Part shown: positions 3,097-12,346 of the stretch, one piece after another | Layout: every line of letters starts with the position of its first letter | How positions within the stretch are numbered: position 1 is the stretch's first letter | NCBI RefSeq assembly: GCF_964204645.1 | Contig: NC_134030.1 | Span: 12,026,278 to 12,090,277, forward strand | DNA from: Tubulanus polymorphus | Lineage: Eukaryota; Nemertea; Palaeonemertea; Tubulaniformes; Tubulanidae | Direction: 5' to 3' | DNA: 64,000 nucleotides | The notes under the pieces: model-generated | Databases searched by the model: none | Told to the model about the DNA's origin: nothing | Seen by the model: only the letters and a program-made list of their open reading frames with translations | Program-made: the position numbers and the translations under genes

Positions 3097-3508
3097 GATG
3101 GTGGAGAACCCAAATTTAAGTCCTCGTGACTTACACAAGTACAGATGAAGCTGCTGATATACGGATTGTGACTGAAACATACCACAAAATAGAAGATCGC
3201 ATTCAACTACACTTGTGACAAGACCGTGCTGATCGCCGAAATCGCTGCTGTTTTGGTGGATCCAACACATTATGGTAACTTGTTGTCAGCCATAGGTAAT
3301 ATAATTGAATCTTCATCTCGAATTAGTGGTCGGATATTGAGTATAGGAAATTATAGCTCTTTGAGTTTGGGAGCATTACTGTGTAGTTGAGCAGTTTGAT
3401 ATATATCTCAAGTTTCGATTGTTCAATTCAAAGCATTTTTCTAGCAAACATTATTCATAATCAGTTTCATTTCGTTCTGTACACTTACGTGGTATACACT
3501 TCAAAAAG
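3097..3508 (+). other. Primer-binding/leader region, rest of gag-pol missing
   Basis: A TGGTGGAGAACCC stretch begins at 3099, two bases after the LTR end, and is the likely primer-binding site. Beyond it I see only a short open stretch near 3145-3222 and no recognisable gag, protease, reverse transcriptase or RNase H. About 3-4 kb of a normal gypsy element is absent between the leader and the integrase. Confidence 0.5.
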
Positions 3509-4927
3509 ATGAAGCGCATACATTGTAGTAAGGATGTTTGTCGCAAAGAAGCATCTCGATTATGGGTACCTGATATCAATGCGGTTGATATAAGCTTAGT
3601 TTCAGGGTTGAATCGGAATATTATAAAACGGAATTATCATAGTCATCCAACACCCTTACAACCATTACCAATTGAAGGCTTATTCTCCAGATGGCACATT
3701 GACTTCCTTTGCAATCTTCCGGAGACACCTGATGGTAATAAGCATATTCTACTCGTGGTAGATAGCCGGAGTAAATGGCCCGAGGCTTTTCCTCTCAAAA
3801 CTCAGGAAACAACAGAGGTAGCAAAGGTTCTCTTTAAAGAGATATTTTCGCGGTATGGTGCTCCTCATTCTTTAGTCTCTGATCGCGGTAAAACATTTAT
3901 GTCTAAGTTAGTTGCAGCTCTCTGTGAATTGTTTCACGTGAAACAACATTTCACCGCTCCGTACCATCCTCAATCAAACTCAGTTTGCGAAAGAACTAAC
4001 CAGTACATTTGGCAGTCGCTTAGGTCGTATTGTAACTAGGATCAGACTAATTGGGATACACTAATGCCAAGTGTAATGATGAGTTATAGGCATGTTCCCT
4101 CAACTGAAGGTTCAGGTTTTAGCCCTTACCACATGTTATTTGGTCAAGAAATGCGTCTACCAATAGACACGGCTTTAATTCCACGGCATTCGTTAGCTAC
4201 TGATCATAAGGCATACTTATCACATATATTAAGGCAGCTGGTCATATCACGAAATATCGCTAACGAGAATATTAAAAGAGCTCAAAATGAGTATAAAACT
4301 CAGTTCGATAAAAAGGCATTAAAACCTCAGTTTCAGATTACTGATCGCGTTTGGCTAAAAGTCATGAAAGTTAAGAAAGGAAAATCACCAAAACTGTGTA
4401 AAAAATACGTAGGTCCCTATTTCATTCAGTCAATAGCTAGTAAAGGGGCTTATCAATTACGAAAAATCTCTGATAACGTTTTACTCCCATCGCATGTCAA
4501 TGGGAACCGTCTTAAGTTATACAAAGATCCCTCATCGCGTCCAAATTATGAAGAGGTCGCATGGGATGGTTCAACAGCTGAGGAAAACCCTGAATTATTC
4601 GACGAGATTCATGGGCGCTTAAAATATAAACCTAGCAATTTAGCTGATACTCCAACTGACACTCAAATTTCGGCTGACGATAACAAAGATAGACCGGTAG
4701 TTACTGAGACTTTCAATGAAACAGATATTCAGAAAATTCTACAGTACAAACTAGAAAGTGGTTTATGTAAATATCGCGTAAAATGGAAGTCAGATTTAAA
4801 TCGTGGAAATTCTTGGGAATTAGGAAAATGGATCCCAAATAAACTAATTCGACACTTTCACGAAAACTATGCGGCATCAGGCAAAAAACGTAAGAAACCT
4901 TGCAAAAGTGGCTCAAGTCCATTATAG
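3509..4927 (+). pseudogene. Ty3/gypsy integrase with C-terminal chromodomain-like tail, in-frame stop
   Basis: This is the integrase end of a gypsy pol gene. The catalytic Asp codons are at 3701 (in WHIDF) and 3881 (in LVSDRG) and the Glu codon is at 3989 (in NSVCERTNQ), giving the D-35-E spacing of retroviral-type integrases. The frame is broken by TAG at 4037-4039; the same frame then continues open to 4927. The downstream half has the integrase C-terminal segment (VGPYFIQSI) and ends in a chromodomain-like stretch (KYRVKWK, then NSWE and PNKLIRHFH), the usual targeting module of chromoviruses. There is no HHCC zinc finger at the start. With no reverse transcriptase upstream, this is a dead remnant. 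Family assignment is firm; clade is inferred. Confidence 0.9.
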
Positions 4928-5041
4928 CATTAAATAGTTCCAGCAGAGACTTATTACATCGGACTGGTATTTGAAATTAATCCGCCAATATCGGACATAT
5001 TGAATCTTATATTACGCACGAATACGACATAACGCTATACG
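4928..5041. other. Interior of LTR element between integrase and nested TIR element
   Basis: No gene or repeat recognised. It ends where the CCGACA-rich terminal repeat begins, and no clear target-site duplication is visible against the sequence right of 9896. Confidence 0.4.
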
Positions 5042-5215
5042 GACAAACCAACATACCGACAAACCGACAAACCGACATACCGACAAACCGACAAACCGAC
5101 AAACCGACATATCGACATTGGCATTTAACAAAAGAGAAATATTATTACGGAACTTATTATTAATAGCAATAACATACTGAATGCTTGGCGGATTATGTAT
5201 CTTTGGGTTTCACAC
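5042..5215 (+). repeat. Left terminal inverted repeat of Merlin/DUF3987 element
   Basis: An inverted match to 9720-9896. The outer 80 bases are tandem CCGACAAA and CCGACATA octamers. The inner part includes ATTATTACGGAACTTATTAT and a stretch ending ATCTTTGGGTTTCAC. The two arms are roughly 90% identical by eye in the inner part. Confidence 0.85.
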
Positions 5216-5396
5216 GTTTAAAAGTTTTTCCAGTTATTTCATCGTATAAATGCTTTTAATATAAGTCTATGAATTGCAACGATTATAAATGATATCGGCC
5301 ATAATATCGACGACGAGCGACCACCCATAATTGGTTATCAAATCATGGGATAATCTTCAGATACTTTAAGACGGGTTTACGGTTACTTGATGAGGT

Positions 5397-8300
5397 TCAA
5401 GATTCATCCGACTCATCCGTGTCGTCGACCTGCGTTAACATTTCTTCAAACGCCTCTATTTCTGGATGATGAATTCGACAAGTGGTTTTCATGGCCTCGG
5501 ACATACTACTCGTATCATTAAACTTTGCCCGATATACGTCTAAAGTTGTGTCTGTGCATTTGAACAGACTGTCTTTTTCGAAAAGTGCGTCTGGCAATTT
5601 CTTGAAGAAAAATAGTGTTGATCTTCCAGCTCCTGCTTGTTTTAGTGTTTTCAAGTGACCCAGGTTTTTCCTGCTCAGCTCCTGCAGACTTACTGGAATA
5701 AGAGAGACGAAGTATATCAAATACATGTGCATGTGATGGCTTTTGTTGAATTTGCATTCCATTACATATAAGCCAGCCAATTAAAGAATATTCTTTTAGG
5801 CCTTTTTTAATGTTATAGAAATTATCCTTTTTTATCGGACGAGTTTAGCCGATTGTTCATTCGTTCGTTCGTTCTTTAAATTGATACTATAGAAACCAAC
5901 GTAGTATTATTAACAATCCTTACAGTTTCAACCGAAATTGGTAAAATAAGAATGGTGAATTTCGTAGCATGTCCCGGTCTATTGGAAATTTCTCCACTTT
6001 TTCATGATTGTAAAAAAGCAATTGATTTTCTGCTAGATCATGAAGTTCTTTAATCAGCAAATGATTGTGATGTGTGCATTAAACCAATGTTATTAGTACC
6101 AAGAACATCAATTACTGATGGATTTATTTGGTTGTGTAATGAATGTGGCTGCAATCGGTCTATCCGAACTGGAAGCATCTTTGAGGTAATATTGTTGTTT
6201 TTTCAACGTTATGATTTTGGGACGTGTGTATTAGCGTGTATTACACTTTATAACATTATAGAGATCGAGGAGCCGAGTGTGCCCGTGTATTACACTTATA
6301 TAAAGTGGCTGAGATCGAGGGGCTTTGAGGTGCGTGGATTACCCTTATATAAAGTGGCTGGGATCGAGGGGCTGTGTGTGTGCGTGGATTACCCTTATAT
6401 AAAGTGGCTGAGATCGAGGGGCTGGGTGTGTGCGTGGATTACACTTATATAAAGTGGCTGAGATCGAGGGGCCGGGTGTGTGCGTGGATTACCCTTATAT
6501 AAAGTGGCTGAGATCGAGGGGCTTGGTGTGTGCGTGGATTACCCTTATATAAAGTGGCTGGGATCGAGGGGCTGTGAGGTGCGTGGATTACCCTTATATA
6601 AAGTTGCTGAGATCGAGGGGCTGTGAAGTGTGGCTGAGATCGAGGGCTGTGTGTGTGCGTGGATTACCCTTATATAAAGTGGCTGGGATCGAGGGGCTGT
6701 GTGTGTGCGTGGATTACCCTTATATAAAGTGGCTGGGGTCGAGGGGCTGTGTGTGTGCGTGGATTACCCTTATATAAAGTGGCTGAGATCGAGAAGCCGG
6801 GTGTGCCGTGTATTACACTTATATAAAGTGGCTGAGATCGAGGGGCCGGGTGTGCCCGTGAATTAGGCTGCATTATAAAATATTTTTTCATAATTTCTAC
6901 AGGGATCCAAACTGTCGTTGTGCTCTGCTCTGTTGATCGTGTACGGATTTGCAATTGATCTACAGATTTATCAAGTGCAGAAATTGGAACCTAATTTGAA
7001 CGTGAAGACCATCATGAAATGGTATGACAGGTTGCGTGAAGTTTGTAGCGATTTTCTAAGGCGTAACCCTGTCATCATAAAAGGTGATGTCGCAGAATCA
7101 ATTTCAGAAATTGATGAATCACTTTTCGGAAAAAGACGCAAATATAACAAAGGAAGCGGAAAACAGGACACATGGGTTTTTGGAATCTTTGAACGTGGTA
7201 CACGGAATGTTGTAATGTCAATTGTGAACCGTAGAAATCGTGAAACTTTATTGCCGATTATAAAGAAGCACGTTGCAAGTGGCTGCACAATTTATTCAGA
7301 TGGTTGGTCGGCATATTCGGCGTTAAATGAAACGTATAACCATGGTGTTGTTAATCATTCCAAAGAGTTCAAATCTGTCGAAAATGTTTGCACGAATGGC
7401 ATTGAAGGTATGTGGGGTATGATGAAAGGTAGGATCAAGAAAATGAAGGGCGTTGTCCACCAAAGAATTGGAATCTATATTGATGAATTTGTGTATAGGT
7501 ATAGATTTGGACACTCAAATGGAGACATTTTTTGGGCATTTTTCCGTCATATAGGGCAACTAAAAAGAATGGAAAAATTGAGTCGGCCTAACTTACATTG
7601 AACATTTGAAGCTGTGACTGCTCGTCCGCTGAGATTTTTCTGGATCATACGGAGAGTAACCAGTGGCCCAGGGGAATGAATGACAACTCTCCAGACTTTT
7701 TCGTCGAAACTCTTTATTGATTTATTCATTCTGACGGTTTTTGTGTCATTTCTTGAAAAGCTTTTAACGGCCTAAAATGATCAAATAATCATAAATGTGT
7801 TCATATTTTCATTAATTAGCAGTTAAATAAATGTTACCAGGTTATATTGTACTATATTTGTATGTTTAATAGAAAATATATTTTCATTTACCTGTAAAAT
7901 CACATCTTTTTGTTGAACAATTACATGATATAACGTTTTGGCGGCGATGACGGATTCTAATCCAATCGTCTTATTGAATCGGAATTCATTTTCTTTGTCC
8001 GTTAAAAAGTGATGTAGGTATTGACTTTGGATACTTAAGATGGCTGCAATCCTTAGAATATGCATAGCATCTTTTGAACTTACGAGACTCGTTTCTTCAA
8101 TATTTTCATCTGGAACAAACATGATTTTTGAGTGCAATTGAAGGCACGAACCCGTGTTTTAATATTGGTTATTTTGAAATAGCAACTGAGACTTGAAATC
8201 CTGAGTTAAATTTTTTGTGAATTCTGTCATTATGCAAACTGAATTTAAACGAACATATAGTGGTAAATTAGATATAAACTTTCTTTATCAATGATTTTCT

Positions 8301-9240
8301 TTAACTTTCTACTTGAAGAGGTTTTAGGATACATACCGTCACTCGAGTCTGAATCGTACATTCGGTTCATATACATTACGAATTCGTCACGAATTTTGTT
8401 AAACGCGGTTGTTGCCTCTAGTGAAAGTTTTAAAACCGTTTCCTTAGATTTGAAATCATTGTAAATTGCCTCGAATATAGGAATGAAGCTTTCTAATCCT
8501 GATTGTGACAACAGTTTATAATTGTCTTTACAAACGCTCGATGGTTGGATCATTGGTTTTGAGACGAGGAACAAGAACCTATCCCAGAATCCGTCACCAC
8601 ATTGCTGACTTGCACCGTTAATCATTTCCCTAAACATGGGTTCTGGTTGAATGAAGACAAGCATAGATATTGCTGTTTTTTCGAACCCTCTGGTTCCTGT
8701 TGACAATGTTGATGCATCGCCATGTCCACCCCATACTTTATTAAGGAAACTCCTTTCTGATTCGCCATTGCGTTGTTTCGTATTAATTTCGGCCATCAGC
8801 TTCGCACCTTCATCCTCGCTTATCAAGCCATACCCACGGTTTTCTTTTTGATGGTTTTGTATTCCAGCGGAGGTGTATTTACCGATCAACAATGATTTAC
8901 CACTTTTTGTTGCATAAACCCTATCGGCTGGTATTACGATCTCATCAAATGCTCGCGATTTACCTCCTCCACACTCGCAAAGACATGCAATAAACGTGTT
9001 CAGGGTTGATGTAAAATCGCCGTCTTCCGTTTCAGCTACACATCCAGGCCCTATCAGACTTGCTGTTATTGGTAGCAATGCCCCAACTAAAAGATCGAGT
9101 GGACAGTTTTTTACCCTTGAGTAGATCCTTAACCATTCTAGTTCCTGTTCGTTGACAATTTCTGCCCATGGTACTTTAATTTTCCATGCTTTTTTATATA
9201 TTTTAGCAATATCGGAGCTGCATAGAATAGATCTCGACAT
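5397..9240 (-). CDS. DUF3987-type P-loop (helicase/primase-associated) protein, 4 exons
   Basis: Proposed exons on the minus strand are 9240-8337, 8109-7892, 7771-7597 and 5692-5397. Every junction is GT-AG, and the joined frame is 1593 nt (530 aa plus stop) with no internal stop. The Walker-A-like ECGGGKS is at residues 89-95, an acidic SEDEG at about 141-145, then WGGHGDAS and a GDGFWDRFLFL block, in the order seen in DUF3987 proteins. Those are phage, plasmid and mobile-element ATPases related to primase-helicases. Exon 3 holds a winged-helix-like IHSPGPLVTLRMI stretch and the C-terminus is acidic (DDTDESDES). Met 9240 is the first start in the frame; a further upstream exon is possible. 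The last intron (about 1.9 kb) contains the antisense transposase gene. The role in transposition is inferred. Confidence 0.75.
5952..7601 (+). pseudogene. Merlin/ISXO2-like (IS1595-type) DDE transposase, 2 exons, one in-frame stop
   Basis: Exon 1 is 5952-6185 and exon 2 is 6903-7601; the phase-0 intron is 6186-6902 (GAG|GTAATA to TTCTACAG|GGA). The join restores the family motif SIFE-GSKLSL. Exon 1 has a zinc ribbon (CDVC and CNEC) after a typical AIDFLLDHEVL stretch. Exon 2 has the DDE triad: Asp codon 7113 (SEIDES), Asp 7299 (IYSDGW), Glu 7404 (NGIEGMW), with 34 residues between the last two, as in IS1016/Merlin transposases. TAA at 6051-6053 interrupts exon 1 between the N-terminal helix and the zinc ribbon, so the full-length enzyme is not encoded unless that stretch is spliced out. 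A product starting downstream would keep the catalytic core but lose the N-terminus. Family call firm. Confidence 0.85.
6222..6864 (+). repeat. 50-bp minisatellite inside transposase intron
   Basis: About 13 copies of a 50-bp unit with the core GGATTACCCTTATATAAAG followed by TGGCTGAGATCGAGGGGC and a GTGTGTGCGT tail. Each unit carries a TATA-like TATATAAAG. The array almost fills the intron at 6186-6902. The same unit forms the array at 10749-11810 on the same strand. Confidence 0.95.
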
Positions 9241-9719
9241 CTTGGCAATTATCTTTGATCTGACTTAACAGTTTAATCAGTTTAATTACGAATTCAATTA
9301 AGATATGTATCCATAGTAACACTAATTACAGTGGCTAAAAGAAACTATGGACGCAGTGTTTGTTCTATAACAATAGAATTTTCGGTATCAAACGAATGAC
9401 ACTGTAGGTAATGAAATCAATTCGCAAATTCTTATTATATTTTCATCATTTAAATATAATGATGTTATTGGATTAAGTAAAACATGTCATCGATTAATTT
9501 GTTACAGAAATACAAGTAGAAACCATTAACAAACAAACATGGGGACCCAAACATGGTTACAAACATTACATTTAGTTTAATGAGAAGAGATATGACACAA
9601 GAGGAATTTGCAGTACCAACTGAGCCACAACATTTCCAACAAACTTGAAATCTATTAATCAATTTATTGTTTTAATGTGTGCAATATAATAAGTCTAATA
9701 CAATAAGAGCATCGCAAGA
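9241..9719. other. 5' flank of DUF3987-type gene
   Basis: No gene recognised. It lies between the first exon of the minus-strand gene and the right TIR, so it is the presumed promoter region of that gene. It is AT-rich with no obvious TATA box placed for the Met at 9240. Confidence 0.35.
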
Positions 9720-9896
9720 CGCGTGAAACCCAAAGATACATAATCCACCGAGCATTCAGTATGTTATTGCTATTAATAATAAGTTCCGTAATAATATTAC
9801 TTTTTTTATTAATGCCAATGTCGGTTTATCGGTATGTCGGTATGTCGGTTTGTCGGTATGTCGGTATGTCGGTTTGTCGGTATGTCGGTTTGTCTT
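9720..9896 (-). repeat. Right terminal inverted repeat of Merlin/DUF3987 element
   Basis: Reverse complement of 5042-5215. The outer end is tandem TCGGTATG and TCGGTTTG octamers up to GTTTGTC at 9896. Confidence 0.85.
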
Positions 9897-9939
9897 GAAA
9901 AGTATGCAGCCGAATTACTCCCTTTAAAAAAATGTATCT

Positions 9940-10350
9940 TTGAGCGGGGAACTATTCCACGCTATACTGGACTTGAACCGCAGAGGTAAGTTTTTTTATC
10001 GCATTACAGACAATTCTGATAATAATCAGGGACATCAAAACGATCGAAATGAAAACGAGAATGACGTAGCAAATATTATAATCACAAATAGAGATAGATG
10101 TCAGGATAGTGAAGTAGAGATACGTGAAAAACCTAGAAGAACATTAAATGGAACCGTAATACAGGGTGTATATGTTACTAATGATCGCTTACAGGAATTT
10201 GATAATCAGATGTCTAATGAAGACTCATCAAATAATGAGAATGTAAATAGAGTATATTGTTCAGCTCGATCGAAAACTCACCAAGATCATACGAATCAGG
10301 GCTCAACTCCAGAACAGGTAAAAGTAGATCTGCCCAGGCTGAGTACATAG
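9940..10350 (+). CDS. Unrecognised open frame, Asn/Asp-rich, low confidence
   Basis: An open frame of about 136 codons, rich in Asn, Asp and Glu, with no domain I recognise. It sits between the two inverted-repeat elements. A short stretch at 9917-9975 in another frame reads GTIPRYTGLEP and resembles GTILTYSGVEP at about 12150-12220. It may be remains of the LTR element's 3' coding region or cargo. No good start codon: the listed start is TTG. Confidence 0.25.
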   Translation: MSGELFHAILDLNRRGKFFYRITDNSDNNQGHQNDRNENENDVANIIITNRDRCQDSEVEIREKPRRTLNGTVIQGVYVTNDRLQEFDNQMSNEDSSNNENVNRVYCSARSKTHQDHTNQGSTPEQVKVDLPRLST

Positions 10351-10375: not shown

Positions 10376-10748
10376 GCCGACCTGTTTTACTCGTCGACAA
10401 TTCCGACGATTTAGAATTGCCCACCTATTATACTCGTCGATAATTCCGACGATTTAGAATTGCCCACCTATTTTACTCGTCGACAATTCCGACGATTTAG
10501 AATTGCCAACCTATATTACTCGTAGACAATTCCGACGATTTAGAATTGCCGACCTATTTTACTCGTCGACAATTCCGACAATTTTAAATTGCCGACCTAT
10601 TTTACTCGTCGACAATTCCGACGATTTAGAATTGCCGGCCTGTTTCATTTGTCGACAATTCCGACGATTTAGAATTTCCGACCTATTTTACTCGTAGACA
10701 ATTCCGACGATTTAGAATTGCCAACCTATTTTACTCGTAGACAATTCC
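10376..10748 (+). repeat. 44-bp tandem array, left foldback arm
   Basis: About eight and a half units of roughly 44 bp with small variations (CCCACC, CCAACC or CCGACC at the join). It runs straight into the minisatellite at 10749. Confidence 0.9.
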
Positions 10749-11810
10749 ATGGATTACCCTTATATAATGTGGCTGGGATCGAGGGGCTGTGTTTTTGCGC
10801 GGATTACCCTGATATAAAGTGGCTGGGATCGAGGGGCTGTGTGTGTGCGTGGATTACCCTTATATAATGTGGCTGGGATCGAGGGGCTGTGTTTTTGCGC
10901 GGATTACCCTGATATAAAGTGGCTGGGATCGAGGGGCTGTGTGTGTGCGTGGATTACCCTTATATAATGTGGCTGGGATCGAGGGGCTGTGTTTTTGCGC
11001 GGATTACCCTGATATAAAGTGGCTGGGATCGAGGGGCTGTGTGTGTGCGTGGATTACCCTTATATAATGTGGCTGGGATCGAGGGGCTGCGTGTTTGCGT
11101 GGATTATCCTTGAATAAGGTGGCTGGGATCGAGGGGCTGGGTGTGTGCGTGGATTACCCTGATATAATGTGGCTGGGATCGAGGGGCTGCGTGTGTGCGT
11201 GGATTACCCTGATATAATGTGGCTGGGATCGAGGGGTTGCGTGTGTGCGTGGATTACCCTGATATAATGTGGCTGGGATCGAGGGGCTGCGTGTGTGCGT
11301 GGATTACCCTGATATAATGTGGCTGGGATCGAGGGGCTGCGTGTGTGCGTGGATTACCCTGATATAATGTGGCTGGGATCGAGGGCTGTGTGTTTGCGTG
11401 GATTACCCTTGAATAAAGTGGCTGGGATCGAGGGGCTGCGTGTTTGCGTGGATTACCCTTGAATAAGGTGGCTGGGATTGAGGGGCTGTGTTTTTGCGTG
11501 GATTACCCCTGATATAAAGTGGCTGGGATCGAGGGGCTGTGTGTGTGCGTGGATTACCCTGATATAAAGTGGCTGGGATCGAGGGGCTGTGTGTGTGCGC
11601 GGATTACCCTGATATAAAGTGGCTGGGATCGAGGGGTTGTGTGTTTGCGTGGATTACCCTTGAATAAGGTGGCTGGGATCGAGGGGCTGTGTGTTTGCGT
11701 GGATTACCCTTGAATAAGGTGGCTGGGATCGAGGGGCTGGGTGTTTGTGTGGATTACCCTGATATAAAATGGCTGGGATGAAGGACCGTGTGTAGATTAC
11801 CCTTTATAGA
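10749..11810 (+). repeat. 50-bp minisatellite, foldback loop
   Basis: About 21 copies of a 50-bp unit matching 6222-6864. From 10749 to about 11050 a 100-bp higher-order dimer repeats three times, alternating CTTATATAATG/TTTTTGCGC and CTGATATAAAG/GTGTGCGT units. Later units drift to TTGAATAAGG. Confidence 0.95.
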
Positions 11811-11872
11811 TACAAACTGCAATCGGCATCAAGTGGCCGTGTCGTTGCTTGAAAATTTATCTTCCCTTCAAC

Positions 11873-12133
11873 AATTCTAAATCGTCGGAATTGTCTACGA
11901 GTAAAATAGGTCGGCAATTTAAAATCGTCGGAATTGTCGACGAGTAAAATAGGTCGGCAATTCTAAATCGTCGGAATTGTCTACGAGTAAAATAGGTCGG
12001 CAATTCTAAATCGTCGGAATTGTCGACGAGTAAAATAAGTCGGCAATTCTAAATCGTCGGAATTGTCGACGAGTAAAATAGGTCGGCAATTCTAAATCGT
12101 CGGAATTGTCGACGAGTAAAATAGGTCGGCAAT
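11873..12133 (-). repeat. 44-bp tandem array, right foldback arm
   Basis: About six inverted units (core GAATTGTCGACGAGTAAAAT). The junction with flanking DNA is at GGTCGGCAAT. Confidence 0.9.
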
Positions 12134-12346
12134 TAGAAACCGAACCACTCACTTCATTAAAGAAAATCCTCCACGATGGAACTATATTGACCTATTCTGG
12201 AGTTGAACCCGAATCAGGATAGCGTTAAGAGTAGTTCAGATTCAAGTAATGTCGCTATCGAAGAAGCTATTCGGACGGGAAATCGTCGAGCATTATGACC
12301 GTGCCCTACAGGAAAAACGGTTGTTGCTACCAAATTTCAAAATAAT

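Follow-up and report, generated by a model that had tools for sequence, protein, structure and literature searches.

In a 64,000-nucleotide stretch of the Tubulanus polymorphus genome (contig NC_134030.1, positions 12,026,278 to 12,090,277; hereafter, the window), we identified a transposable element that holds two genes between a single pair of terminal inverted repeats (TIRs): a DDE transposase of the Merlin type and an AAA+ ATPase of the DUF3987 family (PF13148), the core of which is predicted to be MCM-like. The two genes lie and move as one unit, and several divergent families of this genome share the pairing. We consider it probable that these elements form a Merlin sub-lineage characterized by this two-gene composition.

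Two genes in one mobile unit

Across the eukaryotic genome surveyed (267.8 Mb), all four large copies of the window family, namely the window copy and those designated C3, C4 and C10, hold both genes, with the right end missing from C3 and C4. A perfect 8-bp target-site duplication, GAAATAAC, bounds the C10 copy, which sits in one arm of a palindromic repeat, the opposite arm of which shows the unoccupied site by eye. This repeat (L009 1092-1590, 7905-8406) has arms of about 500 bp that are 96-98% complementary and represents another TIR element family.

The same pair stands between the ends of a second, divergent family, L053 (C4:11671000-11678000). This element is 4,738 bp long, with GGCTTGGC / GGTGCACC at its ends; its transposase (350 aa) and DUF3987 (467 aa) frames are both open and lie head to head, and the DUF3987 frame may contain an unspliced intron. 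The DUF3987 match in this family scores 96.8 bits, above the Pfam cut-off. Four insertions (C4, C7, C6:23.0 Mb and C9) match at 99-100% over most of their length, and each is flanked by a perfect 8-bp duplication (GCTGCAGT, CCAGTACT, AGCAGAGC, ATGAAATG); this family moved recently. While the 467-aa frame is open in all four insertions, the 350-aa transposase frame is open in C4 and C7, hence both genes are open in two insertions. The C6 insertion retains a 268-aa transposase frame with a match ending at query residue 144, ahead of the catalytic E, and in C9 an internal deletion has taken out the catalytic part of the transposase, such that the one-gene derivatives of this family read as decayed or deleted forms. 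An earlier note on this DNA, made from the window alone, had proposed that the two genes constitute one mobile unit, and both families bear this out.

Structure and insertion site of the window element

The window element spans positions 4910 to 9979 (5,070 bp, with GG...CC ends). Its limits had been set at 5042 and 9896 in the earlier note, positions that mark only the internal 8-bp array; the true ends emerged from comparison of copies and from empty sites. All four large copies have the left end in common, as do both copies keeping a right end for the right one. The inverted repeats of about 175 bp noted earlier are present as the inner part of the TIRs (5042-5217 / 9719-9894, 176 nt, 91% identical). 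In window coordinates, the features are:

4902..4909, left target-site copy GCAAAAGT, matching the right copy at 6/8 bases; 8-bp overlap at 15/18 unoccupied sites
4910..9979, whole element, ends GGCTCAAGTCCA... / ...TGGACTTGAACC, from copy comparison and unoccupied sites in a retroelement
4910..5217, + strand, left TIR, comprising from its outer end 32 bp with 27/32 identities, an imperfect stretch and the 176-nt part
5042..5117, 8-bp tandem array (GACAAACC)n in the left repeat
5397..5840, - strand, DUF3987 C-terminal coding region, kept in 4/4 copies; splice-site positions approximate
5952..6185, + strand, transposase exon 1, with CxxC...CxxC and an in-frame TAA at 6051-6053
6186..6902, + strand, transposase intron, with GT...AG borders and a 50-bp satellite at 6261-6865
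6903..7601, + strand, transposase exon 2, catalytic, with the DDE_Tnp_IS1595 domain; frame intact
7892..8109, - strand, DUF3987 exon 2, in phase with exon 1; by eye like Mercenaria protein P0010
8337..9240, - strand, DUF3987 exon 1: P-loop 8973-8956, DEG motif 8817-8806, DRF motif 8586-8575
9719..9979, - strand, right TIR, from inverted-repeat comparison
9818..9894, 8-bp tandem array in the right repeat
9980..9987, right target-site copy GCAGAGGT, matching the left copy at 6/8 bases

The host of the insertion is a gypsy-type retroelement (window 3461-4927 and 9980-10300) with an integrase core (rve) match and weak SH3_Tf2-1 and chromodomain matches in the flanks, present in many genomic copies at 87-100% identity. 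Among the 18 copies matching both flanks of the insertion, the two flank matches overlap by exactly 8 bp in 15, thus revealing an unoccupied site with an 8-bp target; the other three show a 7-bp overlap, a 2-bp overlap and a 3-bp gap (one each). The target duplications and empty sites that the earlier note had suggested seeking are therefore both present, as perfect 8-bp duplications in C10 and the second family and as these 15 overlaps. With duplications of this length, within the 8 or 9 bp expected of Merlin elements, the window element also has TIRs within the range of 24-462 bp and the 5'-GG ends given for Merlin in the available part of PMC8101967.

The transposase contains a DDE_Tnp_IS1595 domain (Pfam scan, 2.7e-28, 99.4 bits against a cut-off of 27) with a complete D-D-34-E triad at codons 7113, 7299 and 7404. 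Its identification as a Merlin/ISXO2-type transposase thus stands; the frame, previously described as seen, is broken by the TAA in exon 1, a stop that is absent from the C10 copy, where the frame is open. The CxxC...CxxC of exon 1 is presumably zinc-ribbon-like. The satellite in the intron (6261-6865) is related to one at window 10750-11793 and has many genomic occurrences.

On the opposite strand, the DUF3987 gene (8e-19, 68.5 bits, above the curated cut-off of 27) is well supported in exons 1 and 2, which are in phase over 374 codons. Since its conserved C-terminal region lies beyond the transposase gene, the latter sits in a DUF3987 intron. In C3 and C4 the C-terminal exon reads as one unbroken frame; the window copy and C10 have a one-base frame change in it near 5700, barring a difference in splicing. 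The gene had been called intact over 530 codons, of which the gene itself and the 374 codons hold up and the uninterrupted C-terminal frame does not.

Coding state and relatives of the window family

The DUF3987 gene is frame-shifted in C10, and C3 and C4 contain stops, indels or insertions; on the present reading, no copy of the four is complete in both genes. Given the exon 1 stop and the C-terminal frame change, the window copy probably depends on help from other copies. For transposase exon 2, nonsynonymous divergence (dN) was lower than synonymous divergence (dS) in comparisons with C3 and C4 (0.017 and 0.025 vs 0.043), as was the case for DUF3987 exon 1 (0.030 and 0.024 vs 0.076 and 0.110). 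With C10 the changes are too sparse for a judgement, exon 2 showing 0 synonymous and 2 non-synonymous. The terminal 100 bp of the left end recur at at least 39 further genomic places (40 matches scored of 129 candidates), several of which adjoin the 50-bp satellite and 8-bp array; these are probably short, non-autonomous, satellite-carrying relatives, in keeping with movement in trans.

Pairing across the genome

We grouped 64 transposase search matches, plus one added from a separate search, into 54 clusters and 40 DUF3987 matches into 26 clusters; some clusters are copies of one family, and not every cluster is an independent case. A Merlin transposase lay within 5 kb of 13/26 DUF3987 clusters, within 10 kb of 15/26 and within 20 kb of 16/26, compared with chance expectations of about 0.05, 0.1 and 0.2, respectively, even with the C9 cluster scored as a miss despite its second-family membership. 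Viewed in reverse, DUF3987 occurred within 10 kb of 16/54 transposase clusters. The gene layout varies among families: the genes converge on opposite strands in the window family and L042 (where DUF3987 lies between two transposase pieces), diverge in L053, L040 and L050, and share a strand in L049 and L044. For L042 and L050, no TIRs turned up in the sequence stretches examined.

Gene trees (28 loci for the transposase) agree on several pairs. The window family and L042 are sisters in both (support 0.98 for the transposase, 0.998 for the ATPase), as are L053 and L040 (0.97 and 0.84), and L049 and L050 group together in both (in a clade at 0.76, and at 0.83). Deeper branching order disagrees between the two trees, and L044, a 79-residue piece, fails to fit the agreement. 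Separately, DUF3987 profile matches at C8:175486 and C4:17716189 have no Merlin nearby, one of them in a 779-aa open frame, and could be a host gene or another element type.

The pairing also persists where the original ATPase gene is gone. An element on C2 has the ends and transposase region of the second family (97% identical over 1,481 bp), with a remainder unrelated in sequence that encodes a different DUF3987-like protein on two exons (1e-5 and 8.7e-6; 25.4 and 25.6 bits, each just below the Pfam cut-off of 27). Three copies of this type have the P-loop exon and all adjoin second-family DNA, although C5 is connected to that family by a single match of 135 bp (75%). A search with this protein gave 21 matches, mostly short pieces of the first 40 residues that are probably a repeat. 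An 8-bp duplication was sought around the C2 element and not found, and its two ends may therefore derive from a rearrangement. Its left flank (L030/L054, C2:12127500-12133904) lies within an open reading frame (ORF) resembling, by eye, a piggyBac-type transposase.

A classical Merlin family (L033, L034, L037, L038), also present in this genome, consists of the transposase alone, with no DUF3987 matches at these loci in genome searches, and has perfect 8-bp duplications where both ends could be read (AAACCGTG at L033, GGCGATTT at L037). Because this family moves without DUF3987, the ATPase is unnecessary for Merlin movement in general, and it marks a sub-lineage rather than all Merlins. Copies with one gene, which the earlier note had held would speak against the pairing, thus exist as this separate lineage and as the C9 deletion, while the window family has both genes in 4/4.

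Fold and relatives of the ATPase

A first structure model of the DUF3987 core, built from 10 sequences, was poor (predicted local distance difference test, pLDDT, 49.4) and was discarded. A later model reached a pLDDT of 93, and its best fold matches are AAA+ domains of MCM helicases, with MCM, CMG or replisome entries making up 49 of the best 50. The predicted core is thus an MCM-like AAA+ domain, a likeness drawn from one structure comparison at about 10% sequence identity. At the sequence level, the MCM profile scored 12 bits on the second-family ATPase (E 0.11, under the cut-off of 23.3) and gave no match to the window DUF3987 exon at E 0.1 in the Pfam scan; sequence profiles point to phage DNA helicase, and in the PDB the ATPase profile found weak sequence matches only (best E 0.13). 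The earlier description of the partner as helicase/primase-like is thus revised to an MCM-like AAA+ ATPase; Pfam scans of the window and second-family proteins contained no primase domain.

Beyond this genome, a single-sequence search found 9 relatives of the ATPase and a profile search 44, the nearest named being from the clam Mercenaria mercenaria, and 157 transposase relatives, of which 120 were listed, the nearest named among those listed being from Mytilus edulis. Viral and prokaryotic genome contigs gave pattern matches but no confirmed ATPase relative. For contigs of at least 5 kb (20 entries in one list, 31 in the other), sizes of 9,451 and 457,807 bp occur in both lists, and at each of these sizes one list has a Merlin transposase and the other a DUF3987 protein. 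Judging from these equal sizes, two contigs of other species probably carry both genes. Short contigs occurring in both lists (907, 1,230 and 1,321 bp) were taken as chance.

Possible role of the ATPase

We infer that the ATPase helps transposition: a partner conserved across families and replaced only by the same class most likely acts on DNA during the process. The transposase would bind the element ends and cut and join at 8-bp staggered targets, as the 8-bp duplications imply. The ATPase could assemble on DNA into a ring or filament and perform a step that is beyond the transposase alone, most likely unwinding DNA at the excised or copied element and thereby favouring replication-coupled spread. 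Carried to its full extent, this would mean that the sub-lineage uses its own MCM-like replicative helicase for copy-out transposition, with the transposase obligatorily paired and the motor swappable only within its class; we put this forward tentatively, as a possibility.

Alternatively, the ATPase might select and remodel the target instead of acting as a helicase. MuB, IstB and TnsC are AAA+ partners of DDE transposases, a precedent for such a role, but the fold matches to MCM domains and the sequence profiles pointing to phage DNA helicase make it the less likely mode of action, and we regard this reading as rather doubtful. We hold it unlikely that the DUF3987 gene is a passenger that serves itself, for instance as cargo from a plasmid- or virus-like replicon with no part in transposition. 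Such a reading would suit the movement of one-gene Merlins, the DUF3987 loci with no Merlin nearby and the description of this family, in the available part of PMC5862659, as predicted helicases of bacterial and archaeal mobile elements. However, transposases with just 35-40% identity to one another are still accompanied by the ATPase gene, the main sister pairs match between the trees, and the layouts number at least three; where the original gene is absent, another of the DUF3987 type stands in, a replacement in kind unlike that of a random passenger. Finally, the position of the transposase in an opposite-strand DUF3987 intron might suggest that a Merlin entered an element with its own TIRs and the composite then spread, but this is highly improbable. 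Of 32 inverted pairs, the 25 longest include no inner TIR pair, such as would mark the short-TIR Merlin that the earlier note had envisaged in that intron (about 5.8-7.7 kb); the element's outer termini are of Merlin type, with GG and an 8-bp duplication; and other families are arranged head to head or in tandem rather than nested.

Comparison with known systems

The reading of a two-gene Merlin sub-lineage sets the window element beside several described systems. It resembles the Merlin superfamily, the eukaryotic relatives of IS1016 / IS1595, in its DDE_Tnp_IS1595 domain, GG ends, long TIRs and 8-bp duplications, and differs in its conserved second gene. In the part of PMC8101967 available, IS1595-family members have a single transposase gene, a feature stated for IS1595 and no strict Merlin criterion, and one dinoflagellate Merlin has an extra overlapping ORF resembling nothing. 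KolobokH (PMC9587614, in part) and AcademH (PMC10045372, in part) likewise combine a DDE transposase with a helicase-type accessory protein, but their transposases belong to other superfamilies. Kolobok elements make 4-bp TTAA duplications, in contrast to the IS1595-type transposase and 8-bp duplications found here, and the KolobokH helicase is RecQ rather than an MCM-like AAA+ protein (accessible portion of PMC9587614).

The ATPase belongs to the same Pfam family as prokaryotic proteins described, in the portions of PMC5862659 and PMC10803314 at hand, as predicted helicases in the replication of bacterial and archaeal mobile elements and as components of PICMI satellites. Those proteins are associated with primases, in plasmids, phages and satellites, whereas here an intron-bearing eukaryotic gene is joined to a transposase. 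From MCM replicative helicases, with which it shares the predicted AAA+ fold, it differs in its low sequence identity and a score below the Pfam MCM cut-off. A literature search, with most subscription journals and Repbase outside its range, listed no paper describing a Merlin and DUF3987 pairing in its title, abstract or available text; with accessory helicases already known in Kolobok and Academ, it is the pairing with a Merlin transposase that would be new. A superfamily described as transposase-only would thereby gain a helicase-class partner, and DDE transposition in eukaryotes would be linked to an ATPase family that has otherwise been treated in the context of phages and plasmids. Near-identical transposases with two DUF3987 partners, alongside single-gene Merlins in the same genome, offer a natural comparison for the role of an accessory ATPase.

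Further observations

At L048 (C10:4473500-4483499), a Merlin piece adjoins several long opposite-strand ORFs, one of them DNA polymerase-like by eye, and this locus is possibly a virus-like element. Downstream of the window element, the 50-bp satellite at 10750-11793 lies between inverted 43-bp tandem arrays (10376-10748 and 11872-12134).

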